Source: Pelotomaculum sp. (GTDB lineage Bacteria > Bacillota > Desulfotomaculia > Desulfotomaculales > Pelotomaculaceae). From it: 64,000 bases of DNA. Positions 2,916-9,328 of this stretch are shown piece after piece. Each line of letters begins with the position of its first letter. Position 1 is the first letter of the stretch. The stretch is taken from the NCBI GenBank assembly GCA_018435055.1, contig JAHDOA010000020.1, positions 1-64,000 of the forward strand, given 5' to 3'. A program made the position numbers and the translations under genes. The notes beneath the pieces are model-generated. The model was not told the DNA's origin and made no database searches. It saw only the letters and a program-made list of their open reading frames with translations.

Positions 2916-4184
2916 CTATTTATTTCTTTTCCTGAGCAAATTAATTAAATTTTCCCTGGTATTTAGTTCAGGTTTTTCTAAAACAAGTTCCAACAGGTCT
3001 TTGATAGTTTTCCCTATTTCCGGCCCAGGTGGGAATCCCATATCGATAAGGTCCCGCCCGCTTATGGCCAGGTCTTTCACACCCAACGGTTCCTTACTGG
3101 ACAGAATTGAGTCTGCCTCTTCCCTCATTCTATCGGCTGCGCCGGTGTCGAACGGCCTGGCGGAGCCCCTGATATCCGCTATTTGCAGTTCAAAAAGGTC
3201 ATTAATGTTATCAACACCGACCCGTTTAATCAACCTTTTTAAACCGGAGGTTGAAATCCGGGCATACCTGCTGGTGTGCTCCCTTATGAGGCTGGTTACG
3301 GCGGCAATAGTGTCGTTGCTTAACCTCAGCTTGTTTAATATAGCCCTCGCCATCTGCTCTCCAACGATATTGTGGTTATAAAAGTGGCCTTCGCCCTTTT
3401 CGTCCAATGAGAAAGTTACGGGTTTGGCCACGTCGTGCAAAAGGGCTGCCAGCCTGACATTCAGGGTCGCCGGTGTATTGTCCAGGACAGCCAGGGTATG
3501 TTCAAACACGTCCCTGTCGTGATGCCTGTTTCTTTGCTCAAAGCCCACGCACCCGGCAAGTTCCGGTATTATGCGCCGCAGCAGCCCGCATTCCTGCAGC
3601 AGCCTGACGCCGCAGCCGGGGCCGCCGCTCAGCAAAATCTTGCAGAGCTCGTCGCGCACCCTCTCCGCCGCGGTCTTTGCGATCAAATGGCTGTTTTCTA
3701 TGATTCCTGCCCAGGTCCCGGCGTGCAGGTCAAAGCCCAGGTCTACAGCAAACCTGACCGCCCTGATCAGCCGCAGCGGATCTTCCCGGAAGCGCTGCTC
3801 CGGTTTGCCGACCGTCCTGATTACCTTTTTTTTTATATCATCCTCGCCGCCGAAGCAATCGTATACCTTCCCGTTGATATCCATCGCCAGGGAGTTCATA
3901 GTGAAGTCCCTTCTGGAAAGGTCTTGTTCCAGGCTCTTAATAGAAGTGACTTCGAAACTCATTTTATTTTCCACCACGGCTACCGTGCCGTGCTTTTCTC
4001 CCACAGGTATTACTCTATCAAAGATTTTTTTAACCCCGGCCGGAGAGGCTGAAGTGATAATATCGTAGTCATGAGGCGCCCTGCCCATGATCATGTCCCT
4101 GACGCCGCCGCCGACCAGGTAAGCCTCGTAGCCCCCTGACAACAGCCTCTGCATAACCTTCTTGACCTGCTCAGTTATATCCAT
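2916..4184 (-). CDS. tRNA nucleotidyltransferase (CCA/CC-adding family) with HD domain; flexible loop missing
   Basis: Class II tRNA nucleotidyltransferase acting on tRNA 3' ends; 422 residues. Motif A is LVGGGVRD (23-30) with the catalytic pair in DYD (39-41). Motif B is RRDFTMNSLAMD (91-102), then DCFGGEDDIKKKVIRT and EDPLRLIRAVRF, the template-recognition helix. An HD phosphohydrolase domain follows (DVFEHTLAVLD; LLHDVAKP). Odd point: between EVTSIK (78-83) and SLEQDL (84-89) nothing intervenes, where CCA-adding enzymes of Bacillus and Geobacillus have about 18 residues, the flexible loop. In established work, loss of this loop distinguishes CC-adding enzymes from full CCA-adding ones. I therefore name the family only and do not assign cca with certainty. 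Confidence 0.9.
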   Translation of the reverse strand: MDITEQVKKVMQRLLSGGYEAYLVGGGVRDMIMGRAPHDYDIITSASPAGVKKIFDRVIPVGEKHGTVAVVENKMSFEVTSIKSLEQDLSRRDFTMNSLAMDINGKVYDCFGGEDDIKKKVIRTVGKPEQRFREDPLRLIRAVRFAVDLGFDLHAGTWAGIIENSHLIAKTAAERVRDELCKILLSGGPGCGVRLLQECGLLRRIIPELAGCVGFEQRNRHHDRDVFEHTLAVLDNTPATLNVRLAALLHDVAKPVTFSLDEKGEGHFYNHNIVGEQMARAILNKLRLSNDTIAAVTSLIREHTSRYARISTSGLKRLIKRVGVDNINDLFELQIADIRGSARPFDTGAADRMREEADSILSSKEPLGVKDLAISGRDLIDMGFPPGPEIGKTIKDLLELVLEKPELNTRENLINLLRKRNK

Positions 4185-4297: not shown

Positions 4298-5863
4298 TTG
4301 TCAAGTTGTCCGAATAAAGTAGACGGGTTTATACAAGGACAGGTCAGCCGGCTGGTCGTCCCTTTTTCCTTTAAAATGGGATATGGCGACGCTTGTTTGA
4401 GTTTTACCCGGAGCAGTGGTGAAAAGGTCAGCCACTGGAAACCACAGGACTTTTCCAAAGAAAAGTTGTTTCAACACATTGACCGTCTGATAGACGCCAG
4501 CGGGGATTGCTCAGAAACGATCGGCAGACGGTTTGTTTTGGGTCAGGAAGGCCGGTCCGGTTACGGGTTGCCTCATACCAGGAATACACCTGTCTATGTG
4601 CAAAGCAAAGGCATAGAATTACAGTTATTTATTCATGATGTTGAGATCATTCTGTTTGAAACAAACGTGGGATTTGTTATTTTTGGTTTGGAATACGGCA
4701 AAAGCGCCAGTGTTGAGACAATGATCGACGGAAACTATTTATGCAAAAATTTTAGCAGGCATGATATAAATCTTTTCTATCGCCAAAAATATTATCAGGA
4801 AACAAAACAAATAGATATTAACCTTGGGCGCATCGCCGGTGAAATAACAAAACATCTTGACGTCCTGAGTTTTTTTGACAACAAAGTACAGCCGGCGAAC
4901 AGACTTGCGGCATCCCATGCGCTGGTATTCAATGCTGTGATACTGGATAAAGAGTTTAGTAAAAAAAATGACTTTATGCATGAGCTAAAAAAATATCTTT
5001 TTTTCATGCGGCGGTCTTTCAAGGGATCCTACAAACCCGCTCCCGCAGAATTTGAAATTGAAAATAACCCCGAAGTGATGCAATTCTTTGAAAACAGTTA
5101 CTGGGGAGTTTCCCTGGAGGGTCTTGCGAATATCGTTTACCTGGTTGATGATGAAAATACCAATAAATTTTTTATGGGAGGCTACTCGGGCAATCTCAAG
5201 AACACGTATTTTTATCTGTATATTTTGGCGCTGCACCAGAAATATGCCTTAATGCAGTTTTTTAGCACGGCCACACAACTACCATATACCGACAGCGCCC
5301 TGGCCGACCCGGATAACACCCTCTTAGATGAATTAAACAGCCTGCGCAGAAAAATCGCCCACTTTATTATGCGCTCTTATTTCGGCCAGGTCAGCAATAT
5401 CACTCATCAGAAGAAGCTATATGAAGCAATTCGCCAAACATTAGGGATCCGGGAAATGCTGGACGAGTTGCATTTTGAACTGGAGCAACTTGCCGCCCTG
5501 ACTGAGATGGAGGAACAGAAACGACTTGCCGCGCAAAGGCTGGAACAGAAGTTAATAAGAGAAGAGGAACAGAAACAGCTTGCAGCGCAGAGGCTAATAC
5601 AAGAGGAATTAAGGGCGGCTGAGAACAGGCGTGACAATAAGTTCCAGAAATTCATCGCTGTTATCACCACGGTATTTGTGCTGATTTCAACCGCCCAGGT
5701 CGTTTGGGAAATGTACATCTATGTTTCTTCACAACAATATCCGGCATTATTCTCACGGACTTTTTGGTATATGGTGGTTCCATTTGCTTTTTTATGCTTA
5801 ATAACTGTCTACGGTGTCGTCTATTTTACCAGGTCACAAGGGGGGCGGAAGCCGGATCGCTAA
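4298..5863 (+). CDS. Unrecognised coiled-coil protein with two C-terminal membrane segments
   Basis: 521 residues; I do not recognise the family. There is no signal peptide. A mixed alpha/beta soluble part of about 400 residues is followed by a charged coiled coil (about 400-450) in which EEQKRLAAQRL and EEQKQLAAQRL form a tandem repeat. Two membrane helices then lie at about 451-475 and 487-509, separated by a short loop, with a basic tail. The layout (large cytoplasmic domain, long helix, two C-terminal membrane helices) recalls CorA-type channels, but I see no GMN motif between the helices, so this is only a topological likeness. It starts at TTG 4298, seven bases after AGGGGG. It stands alone between the minus-strand cca and a small minus-strand gene. 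Confidence 0.75.
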   Translation: MSSCPNKVDGFIQGQVSRLVVPFSFKMGYGDACLSFTRSSGEKVSHWKPQDFSKEKLFQHIDRLIDASGDCSETIGRRFVLGQEGRSGYGLPHTRNTPVYVQSKGIELQLFIHDVEIILFETNVGFVIFGLEYGKSASVETMIDGNYLCKNFSRHDINLFYRQKYYQETKQIDINLGRIAGEITKHLDVLSFFDNKVQPANRLAASHALVFNAVILDKEFSKKNDFMHELKKYLFFMRRSFKGSYKPAPAEFEIENNPEVMQFFENSYWGVSLEGLANIVYLVDDENTNKFFMGGYSGNLKNTYFYLYILALHQKYALMQFFSTATQLPYTDSALADPDNTLLDELNSLRRKIAHFIMRSYFGQVSNITHQKKLYEAIRQTLGIREMLDELHFELEQLAALTEMEEQKRLAAQRLEQKLIREEEQKQLAAQRLIQEELRAAENRRDNKFQKFIAVITTVFVLISTAQVVWEMYIYVSSQQYPALFSRTFWYMVVPFAFLCLITVYGVVYFTRSQGGRKPDR

Positions 5864-6430: not shown

Positions 6431-9328
6431 CTAAAATTTGCCGTAATCCACGTCATCCAATGATATGATATCTTTCGGGCTTACCTTATCGGCGAACGTT
6501 ATTGCGGCGGCGTCCGCCCTGTATTTCTGAGCGCCCCTGCCTTTGTTATGCGCCAGGTATGGTTTGCCCGTGTTCAAGGCTGCCGGCGTAAAAGCTGCAC
6601 CGGCGCCCTGTTTTTTCAACTTGAATTTGCCAAGCATCTGCATAACCATTTCAGCCTGGCTGGACATCTCTTCGCTGGCCGCGGCGAGTTCTTCCGAGCT
6701 GGCGGAGTTCTGCTGGGTAACCTGGTCCACCCGCTCCAGACCTTCGTTAATCTGGCCTATACCCTGGGCCTGCTCCTTGGAGGCAGACGCGATATCGCTG
6801 ATGAAGTCGGTTACCTTGCTGACCTCTACTACAATTTCTTCAAGGGCACTGGAGGTTTCCCCGGCAATCCTGGTGCCGTCTTCTGTTTTTTTGATCGAGT
6901 CTTCAATCATTTCGGCAGTTTCCTTTGCCGCCTTGGCACTGCGCTTGGCCAGGTTGCGCACTTCCTCGGCCACCACAGTAAATCCCTTGCCGTGCTTGCC
7001 GGCGCGGGCTGCTTCCACAGCGGCGTTTAACGCCAGCAAGTTGGTCTGAAAGGCTATTTCGTCAATGGCCTTGATAATTTTGGATATGTCGGCAGCCGAG
7101 TGACTAATTTCCTCCATAGCCTTGACCATATGGCCCATCTGCACGTTGCCTTTCTCGGCGTTGGACCTGGCCTCGCCGGCCAGCTGGTTGGCATGGACCG
7201 CGTTTTCAGCGTTCTGCCTGGTCTGGCTGCTCATTTGATGCATGGACGAGGCGATCTCATCCATCGTGCTGGCGGATTCCGCGGCGCCCTGCGACAGGGA
7301 CTGGCTGGAATCCGACACCTGCCGGGCCCCCGTGCTGACCTGCTCTATGGCAGCGGCAATCTGTCCCAGAGTTACGTTCAGTCCTTCAATCGTTGTGTTC
7401 AGAGCGTCTTTAATAATTGCGTAATCACCCTTGAAATTGCCCGTTACAGCTACGTCCAGGTTGCCCCTGGCTACCTCCTGCAGGCACCGGACAGCCTCTT
7501 TCTTGATAATATCGTTAAGCGCCTCCAGGGAGGTGTTCAACGCTTCCTTGATAATCGCGTGATCACCCTGGTAAATCCCCGTCATCCTGACGTCCAGGTT
7601 GCCTTCAGCCATTTCTTTAAGACAGCCGGCCGCTTCGTTAATCGGGTTTATTACCGCGTCCATCATATTGTTGATGCCCTCAATAACCTTGCGATATTCA
7701 CCCAAATGCTTTGCGGTGTCAGCACGGGTTTCGAGCCTGCCGTCCGCTGCGGCTGTAACCAGCATGTTGCTATCGTACACCAGTTCCAAAATAGCTTCGT
7801 GCATGCGGATCAGGCTTGGTATCAGTTCGTCATGATCACACCTGCGCCCAATTTTTTTGAGCTCCTCAATTTCACCGAGATCGCCCCTGGATACCCTGGT
7901 TACGATTGCTGTGACTCTTTCAACCCTGGTGTGGACCTGGTTAAGCGCTACCTTGAGGTCATGCCAGACACCCGTATACTCACTATCTACGATTTTGCTC
8001 AGATCGTTGAGCGCCATCAGGGCAAGGACGTCCATAAACTCTTTGACCGGCGCCGCCACAGCCTCCATCAGGCCGTTCATGCCTTCCATCAGCCTGCGGA
8101 ATTCGCCGTTGTAGCGACCGGCGTCAGCCAGCGTGTCCAGTTCGCCCGATGCGGCGTCTGCAGCCATTCTTTCCACATCACCAACCAGGGCCTGGATAGT
8201 CTCCATCATTTTAATTAAGGAAGGCATTAACTCGTCCTGCTCGCTCCTGCGGCCAATCTTATTCAGGACGGCCAGGGGGCTGAAATCTCCATTGCTGACT
8301 TTAGTAACCGCTTCTACAATATCAGTAAATCTTTCTACTGTAGTGTTGGTGGCGCTTCTCATCTCCTCCCAGACGCCGCTGAAACTCTTTTCAATCTTAT
8401 GGCTAAAATCATCGACGTCTATCCGCTGCATTACCTTAATCAGCTCATTTGCCGGTTCAGCCACTGCGTCCATCATATTGTTCAGGTCACCAGCCAACCT
8501 GCCCCAGTCGCCGCTAAACGCCGCCGCGTCACAACGCGCATCCAGTCTTCCTTCCTTGACTGCCTGAACCATGTTGTTGGTTTCATTAATCAATCTCAGC
8601 AGGGTATCCCTGATCTGGTCCGCCTTTTGGCTGGCGAATCCTCCCCTGCCCGGCAGCCTGTCCATGATCGTGGAGAAATCACCTTCCGCATAAGACACAA
8701 TCGCTTTTAGTAGTTTAGTCATATTCCTGACGTGCGTTTTACCCACCTTGTTGGCATCCGCAACAATATCCCGGTAAACCCCTGTAAAGCCCTCTTCAGA
8801 GATATAAAAGTCAATGGCGCCCTCGTTATGGGATTCGTACAGTTTCTTTACCCCGCCTACAACATTGCTGATACTGTCGATACAGGCGTTCAAATTTCTT
8901 TTGATCTCTTCATAGTCCCCGTTGTAGCTCTCAGTAATCTTTGGTGGAATATCACCTTTACTGATTCTGTCAACATGATCCGCCACCACATTTAGCGGAT
9001 TGACTACAGCGTCAAGGGTTGCGTTCATCTCCTGGATAACTTGCTGGAATTCCGCGTCTACCTTGCTTTCATCGCCCCTTGCGTCCAACCGGCCCTCCCT
9101 GATAGCGCCTGCCAGCTGTTTGCTTTCAGCCAGCAGCGAATCAAGAGAGCTTTTTACAGACTTGATAGTAATGAAACTTAGAACACCTCCTGCTAACATA
9201 GAAACGGCATAAAAAATAATATTGCCTGTCGTGTTTTTTGAGATACTTGCCACAAAACCTGCCATAACGAGTAATAATAGTAGAATTGCCAAACACGCTG
9301 CGATCCTGCTTCCAATCCCCGGTTTCAT
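6431..9328 (-). CDS. Methyl-accepting chemotaxis protein with tandem HAMP-like modules and no sensor domain
   Basis: 965 residues. Two membrane helices (about 9-28 and 35-55) are separated by only a few residues, so there is no extracellular ligand domain. From about 60 to 630 run about a dozen HAMP-like half modules recognisable by recurring EGRLDAR, KGDIPPK, EGDFSTI, NGDFSP, SGELDTL, RGDLGEI, EGNLDVR and RGNLDVA. The cytoplasmic signalling domain follows (about 640-880) with the conserved hairpin tip DEIAFQTNLLALNAAVEAAR, which contacts CheA and CheW. There is no CheR-docking pentapeptide at the end. Start ATG 9328 follows AAAGGGGGC. It occupies the place where divIC would follow yabQ in Bacillus. 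It probably senses an internal or membrane signal; the ligand is unknown. Confidence 0.92.
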   Translation of the reverse strand: MKPGIGSRIAACLAILLLLLVMAGFVASISKNTTGNIIFYAVSMLAGGVLSFITIKSVKSSLDSLLAESKQLAGAIREGRLDARGDESKVDAEFQQVIQEMNATLDAVVNPLNVVADHVDRISKGDIPPKITESYNGDYEEIKRNLNACIDSISNVVGGVKKLYESHNEGAIDFYISEEGFTGVYRDIVADANKVGKTHVRNMTKLLKAIVSYAEGDFSTIMDRLPGRGGFASQKADQIRDTLLRLINETNNMVQAVKEGRLDARCDAAAFSGDWGRLAGDLNNMMDAVAEPANELIKVMQRIDVDDFSHKIEKSFSGVWEEMRSATNTTVERFTDIVEAVTKVSNGDFSPLAVLNKIGRRSEQDELMPSLIKMMETIQALVGDVERMAADAASGELDTLADAGRYNGEFRRLMEGMNGLMEAVAAPVKEFMDVLALMALNDLSKIVDSEYTGVWHDLKVALNQVHTRVERVTAIVTRVSRGDLGEIEELKKIGRRCDHDELIPSLIRMHEAILELVYDSNMLVTAAADGRLETRADTAKHLGEYRKVIEGINNMMDAVINPINEAAGCLKEMAEGNLDVRMTGIYQGDHAIIKEALNTSLEALNDIIKKEAVRCLQEVARGNLDVAVTGNFKGDYAIIKDALNTTIEGLNVTLGQIAAAIEQVSTGARQVSDSSQSLSQGAAESASTMDEIASSMHQMSSQTRQNAENAVHANQLAGEARSNAEKGNVQMGHMVKAMEEISHSAADISKIIKAIDEIAFQTNLLALNAAVEAARAGKHGKGFTVVAEEVRNLAKRSAKAAKETAEMIEDSIKKTEDGTRIAGETSSALEEIVVEVSKVTDFISDIASASKEQAQGIGQINEGLERVDQVTQQNSASSEELAAASEEMSSQAEMVMQMLGKFKLKKQGAGAAFTPAALNTGKPYLAHNKGRGAQKYRADAAAITFADKVSPKDIISLDDVDYGKF

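Follow-up and report, generated by a model that had tools for sequence, protein, structure and literature searches.

Bacterial CC-adding tRNA nucleotidyltransferases of the B. halodurans/D. radiodurans type are among the closest known counterparts of the protein analysed here, P0001. In these enzymes, as described by Neuenfeldt et al. (2008) in the form relayed by PMC3925840, PMC7014341 and PMC11784652, the flexible loop between motifs A and B is deleted, the other core motifs are kept and a second nucleotidyltransferase is paired with the first. Loop deletion is the published hallmark by which bacterial CC-adding enzymes are recognised. The loop works like a lever, shifting the template from CTP to ATP recognition, and class II enzymes that lack it do not proceed beyond CC (PMC7014341, PMC3925840, PMC11784652). 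In the class II enzymes discussed, deleting the loop abolished or strongly inhibited A incorporation (PMC11784652, PMC7014341). The loop is not the whole determinant, because transplanting it does not always convert a CC-adding into a CCA-adding enzyme (some cases fail according to Toh et al. 2009, as cited in PMC3925840). Variation at the first position of the template (xDxxR) has been found only in CC-adding enzymes (PMC11784652).

Several solved structures are also relevant. The CCA-adding enzyme of Geobacillus stearothermophilus (1miv) carries the 18-residue loop. The CC-adding enzyme of Aquifex (AaS, 3wfq) has a short loop and the class II fold, and its stop after CC has been explained by the shape of its body. 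The A-adding enzyme of Aquifex (AaL, 1vfg) and the CCA-adding enzyme of Thermotoga maritima (TmCCA, 3h37) both have an intact loop; the latter is homologous to the A-adding enzyme but adds full CCA (PMC3925840).

The window, by which we mean the whole 64,000-nucleotide stretch of DNA analysed, is the start of contig C53 of a binned assembly (G000; 3.28 Mb, 70 contigs, contamination 4.36%). The features of interest are as follows.

2916..4184, minus strand: class II tRNA nucleotidyltransferase without the flexible loop (P0001, 422 aa), from the open reading frame, Pfam, AlphaFold2 and fold superposition
2916..4184, minus strand: domain order of P0001, namely head (PolyA_pol), neck (PolyA_pol_RNAbd), HD domain and C-terminal tail
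4059..4124, minus strand: motif A region, residues 21-42, AYLVGGGVRD ... HDYD, with catalytic carboxylates D39 and D41 (sequence; coordinates by codon arithmetic)
3918..3953, minus strand: site of the missing flexible loop, residues 78-89, EVTSIK/SLEQDL (phmmer and homologue alignments)
3882..3914, minus strand: motif B, residues 91-101, RRDFTMNSLAM (sequence; columns invariant in the homologue alignment)
3771..3785, minus strand: motif D amino-acid template, residues 134-138, EDPLR, EDxxR intact (sequence and alignment)
3174..3500, minus strand: metal ligands of the HD domain, residues 229-337 (H229, H250-D251, H271, H303, D337), intact (Pfam and alignments)
4298..5863, plus strand: divergent neighbour of 521 aa with weak CorA-like similarity

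A sequence-only reading of this gene had noticed that EVTSIK (residues 78-83) directly abuts SLEQDL (84-89), with no loop of about 18 residues, and comparison with homologues bore this out. Eighteen residues are absent at the junction of residues 83 and 84 (plus strand about 3936/3935, by codon arithmetic). The PolyA_pol profile match was split there, with its first part running to residue 83 (profile position 67) and its second beginning at profile position 85, and the phmmer alignment with Geobacillus 1miv was split in the same way (query 9-84 on chain 10-85, and 78-211 on 97-229). In an alignment of 45 homologues from the named genome collection, 24 residues lie between the positions of S81 and D88 in 43 sequences and 35 in one; only P0001 and its nearest named record, a Desulfotomaculaceae MAG sequence (L057), have 6. 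The stretch absent from P0001 corresponds to nearly invariant columns in canonical homologues, R..(4)..Y.D.R.P. The exact junction is shared with G001, a relative within the same genus, with G014 and G017, and with a second copy on contig C23 of the same genome. This identity across three other genomes and a second copy ruled out a frameshift or assembly artefact at the junction.

Outside the junction, P0001 has the features of a class II enzyme. Pfam matched PF01743 (PolyA_pol), PF12627 (PolyA_pol_RNAbd), PF01966 (HD) and PF13735 (tRNA_NucTran2_2), and the head and neck domains are accompanied by the DxD of motif A, in which D41 is invariant and D39 nearly invariant among homologues, the RRDFT of motif B and the EDxxR template. 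VGGGVRD, DYD, RRDFTMNSLA and EDPLR were each found in the protein, in agreement with the earlier description of these motifs as intact. The AlphaFold2 model, built from 46 sequences of the window and the named collection, had a mean pLDDT of 95 and the seahorse fold of class II enzymes (Z 24-34 to these enzymes). In the model, strand 75-81 turns straight into helix 85-90. Among solved structures, 1miv matched best in sequence as well as in fold (Z 34.3, rmsd 2.3, 377 residues); the Aquifex CC-adding enzyme 3wfq scored Z about 30.8, with only 27% identity in the structural alignment and 525 aa against 422. As modelled, P0001 thus has the make-up of a CCA-type enzyme from which a single stretch is cleanly deleted. 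Unlike the B. halodurans/D. radiodurans type, with which the comparison is by published description of BhCC and DrCC, it retains an intact HD domain, and the tree places it among Clostridia-type CCA enzymes.

The gene had also been judged not to be broken, and this view is upheld by its open frame, by its junction in other genomes and by dN/dS values of 0.14-0.25 against relatives, which indicate purifying selection on the loop-less gene. Because the catalytic, template and HD residues are intact and selection is purifying, P0001 would be a working enzyme rather than a pseudogene.

What would such an enzyme do? With the loop deleted, the EDxxR template would be unable to swing from CTP to ATP recognition, and synthesis would stop after CC. 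P0001 would then add CC to trimmed tRNA, its HD phosphohydrolase domain may clean damaged 3′ ends before re-addition, and a DHH-CBS-CBS nucleotidyltransferase encoded on contig C49 would add the terminal A. We think it quite likely that P0001 adds C74 and C75 but not A76, that the C49 enzyme supplies the A, and that the pair repairs tRNA 3′ ends; here we infer the nucleotide specificity of both proteins as well as the repair role. The CC-adding assignment, proposed from the sequence alone, is favoured because the 18-residue deletion lies exactly at the published hallmark position, and because the sister gene in G001 (L140) has ADPLR instead of EDPLR, a variation published only for CC-adding enzymes (PMC11784652). 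The predicted partner is present as well.

That partner came from a profile search of the genome, which found two further class II nucleotidyltransferases besides P0001. Searching for a second enzyme had been suggested as a check on the CC-adding assignment, and it led to the C49 protein of 882 aa, with DHH-CBS-CBS, PolyA_pol and RNA-binding domains, a complete loop region and an intact ED template. Motif D is ED in all 26 DHH-CBS orthologues sampled, and the enzyme was found in 108 of the 113 genomes of the order. The NCBIfam model NF041569, 'A-adding tRNA nucleotidyltransferase', has a curated cut-off of 1440 bits that was exceeded in none of the 113 genomes; it matched the C49 enzyme over its full length at a lower score, 714.9 bits. 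The C49 enzyme has the same head, neck and intact loop as AaL and TmCCA; the alignment extends into the tail for TmCCA but not for AaL. Judging by homology, the genome would hold an enzyme able to add A76. The earlier expectation of an A-adding partner elsewhere in the genome thus stood insofar as the DHH-CBS enzyme exists, but the statement that the organism needs one was too strong, since complete relatives have the DHH-CBS enzyme alone.

The DHH-CBS enzymes of the order vary in architecture. A-adding-type nucleotidyltransferases that lack the DHH-CBS part and stand alone at about 450-470 aa occur in G013 (L050, G013:C4:7697-8962) and G107 (G107:C65:5732-6994), and the full 880-aa DHH-CBS form occurs in G106 of the same genus. 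In family f14, the model match of the enzymes of G031, G032 and G037 (G031:C1:1304172-1306397, G032:C45:52832-54886, G037:C1:755053-757350) breaks off at position 697-772 of 880, so that they seemingly have no C-terminal tail; these three genomes have canonical-loop second enzymes. In G012 we found two DHH-CBS-type nucleotidyltransferases (G012:C12:9208-11811 and G012:C33:27906-29720) and no other second enzyme.

The tRNA genes bear on the role of the pair. A 3′ CCA is encoded in all 44 distinct tRNA genes of the window's genome and in all 48 of G015, as shown by ARAGORN on Rfam tRNA loci; in this, too, the system is unlike the B. halodurans/D. radiodurans type. Because all examined tRNA genes encode CCA, P0001 and the C49 enzyme would serve the repair of trimmed or damaged ends and not synthesis. 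The intact HD phosphohydrolase domain fits a cleaning of ends before re-addition. Genomes with the DHH-CBS enzyme alone, including complete ones such as G015 (one contig), G010, G085, G051 and G052, likewise fit a repair-only role under encoded CCA. P0001 may even be dispensable, because several complete genomes of the order yielded no class II enzyme besides the DHH-CBS one. At the thresholds used, and with some of the genomes incomplete, 35 genomes of the order had a window-type second enzyme, 34 an Aquifex AaS-type one, the other second enzyme of this order, and 44 neither.

Loop states differ across the order. Exact deletion was found in the window's genome (two copies), G001, G014 and G017, all of the same family, and G063 and G067, which belong to another family, have lost the loop as well. 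Short loop remnants occur in G112, G018, G062 and G040, and a long degenerate stretch without Y.D.R.P in G013, G106 and G107. The window-type enzymes of the remaining families have canonical loops; one such genome, G026 (86% complete), is among the five in which no DHH-CBS enzyme was detected. The first template position was E in P0001, in all canonical, short and degenerate forms read and in the DHH-CBS enzymes read; in the AaS-like genes of the order this position varied widely. In L056/L155 (G022) and other f5 relatives the loop is canonical, and the HD residues are lost in L056, the one aligned, which is the reverse of P0001. In a tree built without the loop columns, loops must have switched between the canonical and a non-canonical state four times or more. 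Support was 100 for the five-member window clade and 83-93 for the forks separating the main loop events, and two cases were single long branches. As these separating forks are moderate and two of the branches single and long, we claim from the tree that the loop was lost on at least two lineages, probably four.

The distribution of the loop-less gene is patchy, with 4 of the 25 genomes of the family carrying it. Between genera g1, g5 and g10 its dS was 0.49-0.81, while dS in the same genomes was above 2 or saturated for both the DHH-CBS gene and the gene beside it (L006 6075-6692), and the surroundings of the loop-less gene differ among these genera. Inside the genus, synteny with G001 is retained at the locus, where dS is only slightly above that of neighbouring genes. 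Because the loop-less gene is this similar between genera whose core genes are near saturation, the best account of its history appears to be horizontal transfer across genera and subsequent vertical inheritance. The divergent gene at 4298-5863 may have moved together with it, since a homologue adjoins the loop-less gene in G017 (L286:7142-8407). Elsewhere in the window, PdxA (796-1833) and a large methyl-accepting chemotaxis protein with five HAMP_2 matches (6431-9328) are interposed between genes that lie close together in G001, so this region has acquired insertions.

The second copy, on contig C23, is 84% identical to residues 1-326 of P0001 and ends early at a TAA stop, so that it lacks the C-terminal region along with D337, the final HD ligand; it is probably incomplete as an enzyme. 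A 73-bp remnant of the 4298-5863 neighbour gene lies upstream of it. The copy lies 3′ of the BREX operon genes PglX, PglZ and BrxL, an adjacency seen in one genome only. On this stretch (L007:31-9079, G000:C23:12030-21078) pglX, whose 5′ part lies beyond its edge, is followed by pglZ and brxL; the truncated copy comes immediately after them, and then a Fic gene on the opposite strand. Recent duplication within the genome is not supported, as the copies differ by a dS of 0.37, a value similar to that separating species of the genus. An origin of C23 by contamination from a related bin was judged unlikely, with some doubt left by the binned, partly contaminated assembly: C23 very probably belongs to this genome, because it carries the genome's only SpoIIR gene.

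Could P0001 still make full CCA without its loop? Its template keeps the E at the first position, as in CCA-adding enzymes, its body is closer to CCA-adding 1miv than to the Aquifex CC-adding enzyme, and the transplant work cited in PMC3925840 indicates that the loop is not the sole determinant. Because of this closeness to 1miv, the body-based stop of AaS cannot simply be assumed for P0001. However, A incorporation was lost or strongly inhibited in the published loop deletions (PMC11784652, PMC7014341), the loop columns are nearly invariant in canonical homologues, and the template glutamate has gone from the sister gene, so we regard full CCA addition by P0001 as very improbable. We give equally little credence to a decaying, functionless gene of which the truncated C23 copy would be a later stage. 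Such decay would fit the patchy distribution, a dN/dS for the window gene (0.19-0.25) above that of the DHH-CBS gene (0.10-0.13), and a copy stopped after about 326 of 422 residues, but it sits poorly with an open frame in which all catalytic and HD residues are kept, with dN/dS well below 1 and with the synteny retained between this genome and G001.

A stronger alternative agrees that P0001 is CC-adding and differs only on the partner. The C49 enzyme may be strictly A-adding, or it could be full CCA-adding, because it is solitary in several complete genomes and its tail is nearer to Thermotoga than to Aquifex. If it adds full CCA, P0001 would be a redundant, horizontally acquired CC helper whose loop was free to go, its loss being tolerated because the DHH-CBS enzyme always covered A-addition. 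In eight complete or near-complete genomes DHH-CBS was the only class II nucleotidyltransferase above cut-off. A relaxed PF01743 search for a hidden second enzyme in DHH-CBS-only genomes gave weak extra matches only, of which the two inspected were chance matches to ClpC, and the archaeal-type enzyme (PF09249) stayed below cut-off in all eight genomes tested, seven of them the same. The C49 enzyme aligned with 3h37 over the whole catalytic half, head to tail (235 bits), and with 1vfg over head and neck only (188 bits), and the loop-less gene is patchy and transferred between genera. Against this, A-only repair may suffice where CCA is genome-encoded, so a solitary DHH-CBS enzyme is no proof of CCA activity; about 60% of the order's genomes have a second enzyme of one of the two kinds; and the A-adding model NF041569 is matched full length. 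A CCA-adding C49 enzyme is therefore a serious candidate, though we lean mildly away from it.

The order-wide data also suggest a broader scenario, which we find evenly poised between right and wrong. The near-universal DHH-CBS enzyme would cover A-addition, or all CCA repair, while the HD-type enzyme would have lost its loop repeatedly and independently, with living intermediates, and the loop-less form would spread horizontally from genus to genus as an optional CC-repair module. The proposed series runs from the canonical loop through a long degenerate stretch without Y.D.R.P and a short remnant to exact deletion. If true, it would be a natural evolutionary series showing a CCA enzyme becoming a CC enzyme.

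An enzyme of this kind is already known; what the present case adds is a role probably confined to repair, a likely spread by horizontal transfer, intermediates with degraded loops, and complete genomes in which DHH-CBS stands alone. P0001 would represent a clean conversion from CCA to CC addition by one small deletion in an HD-type enzyme with a CCA-like body, and it offers a test of whether an enzyme that has no Aquifex-type body will stop after CC through loss of the loop alone. The graded loops of related proteins, together with the complete genomes that have the DHH-CBS enzyme alone, make the A- or CCA-adding status of that enzyme directly testable. The system also corrects the view of split CCA systems as makers of tRNA ends, as here the CCA is encoded in every tRNA gene examined.
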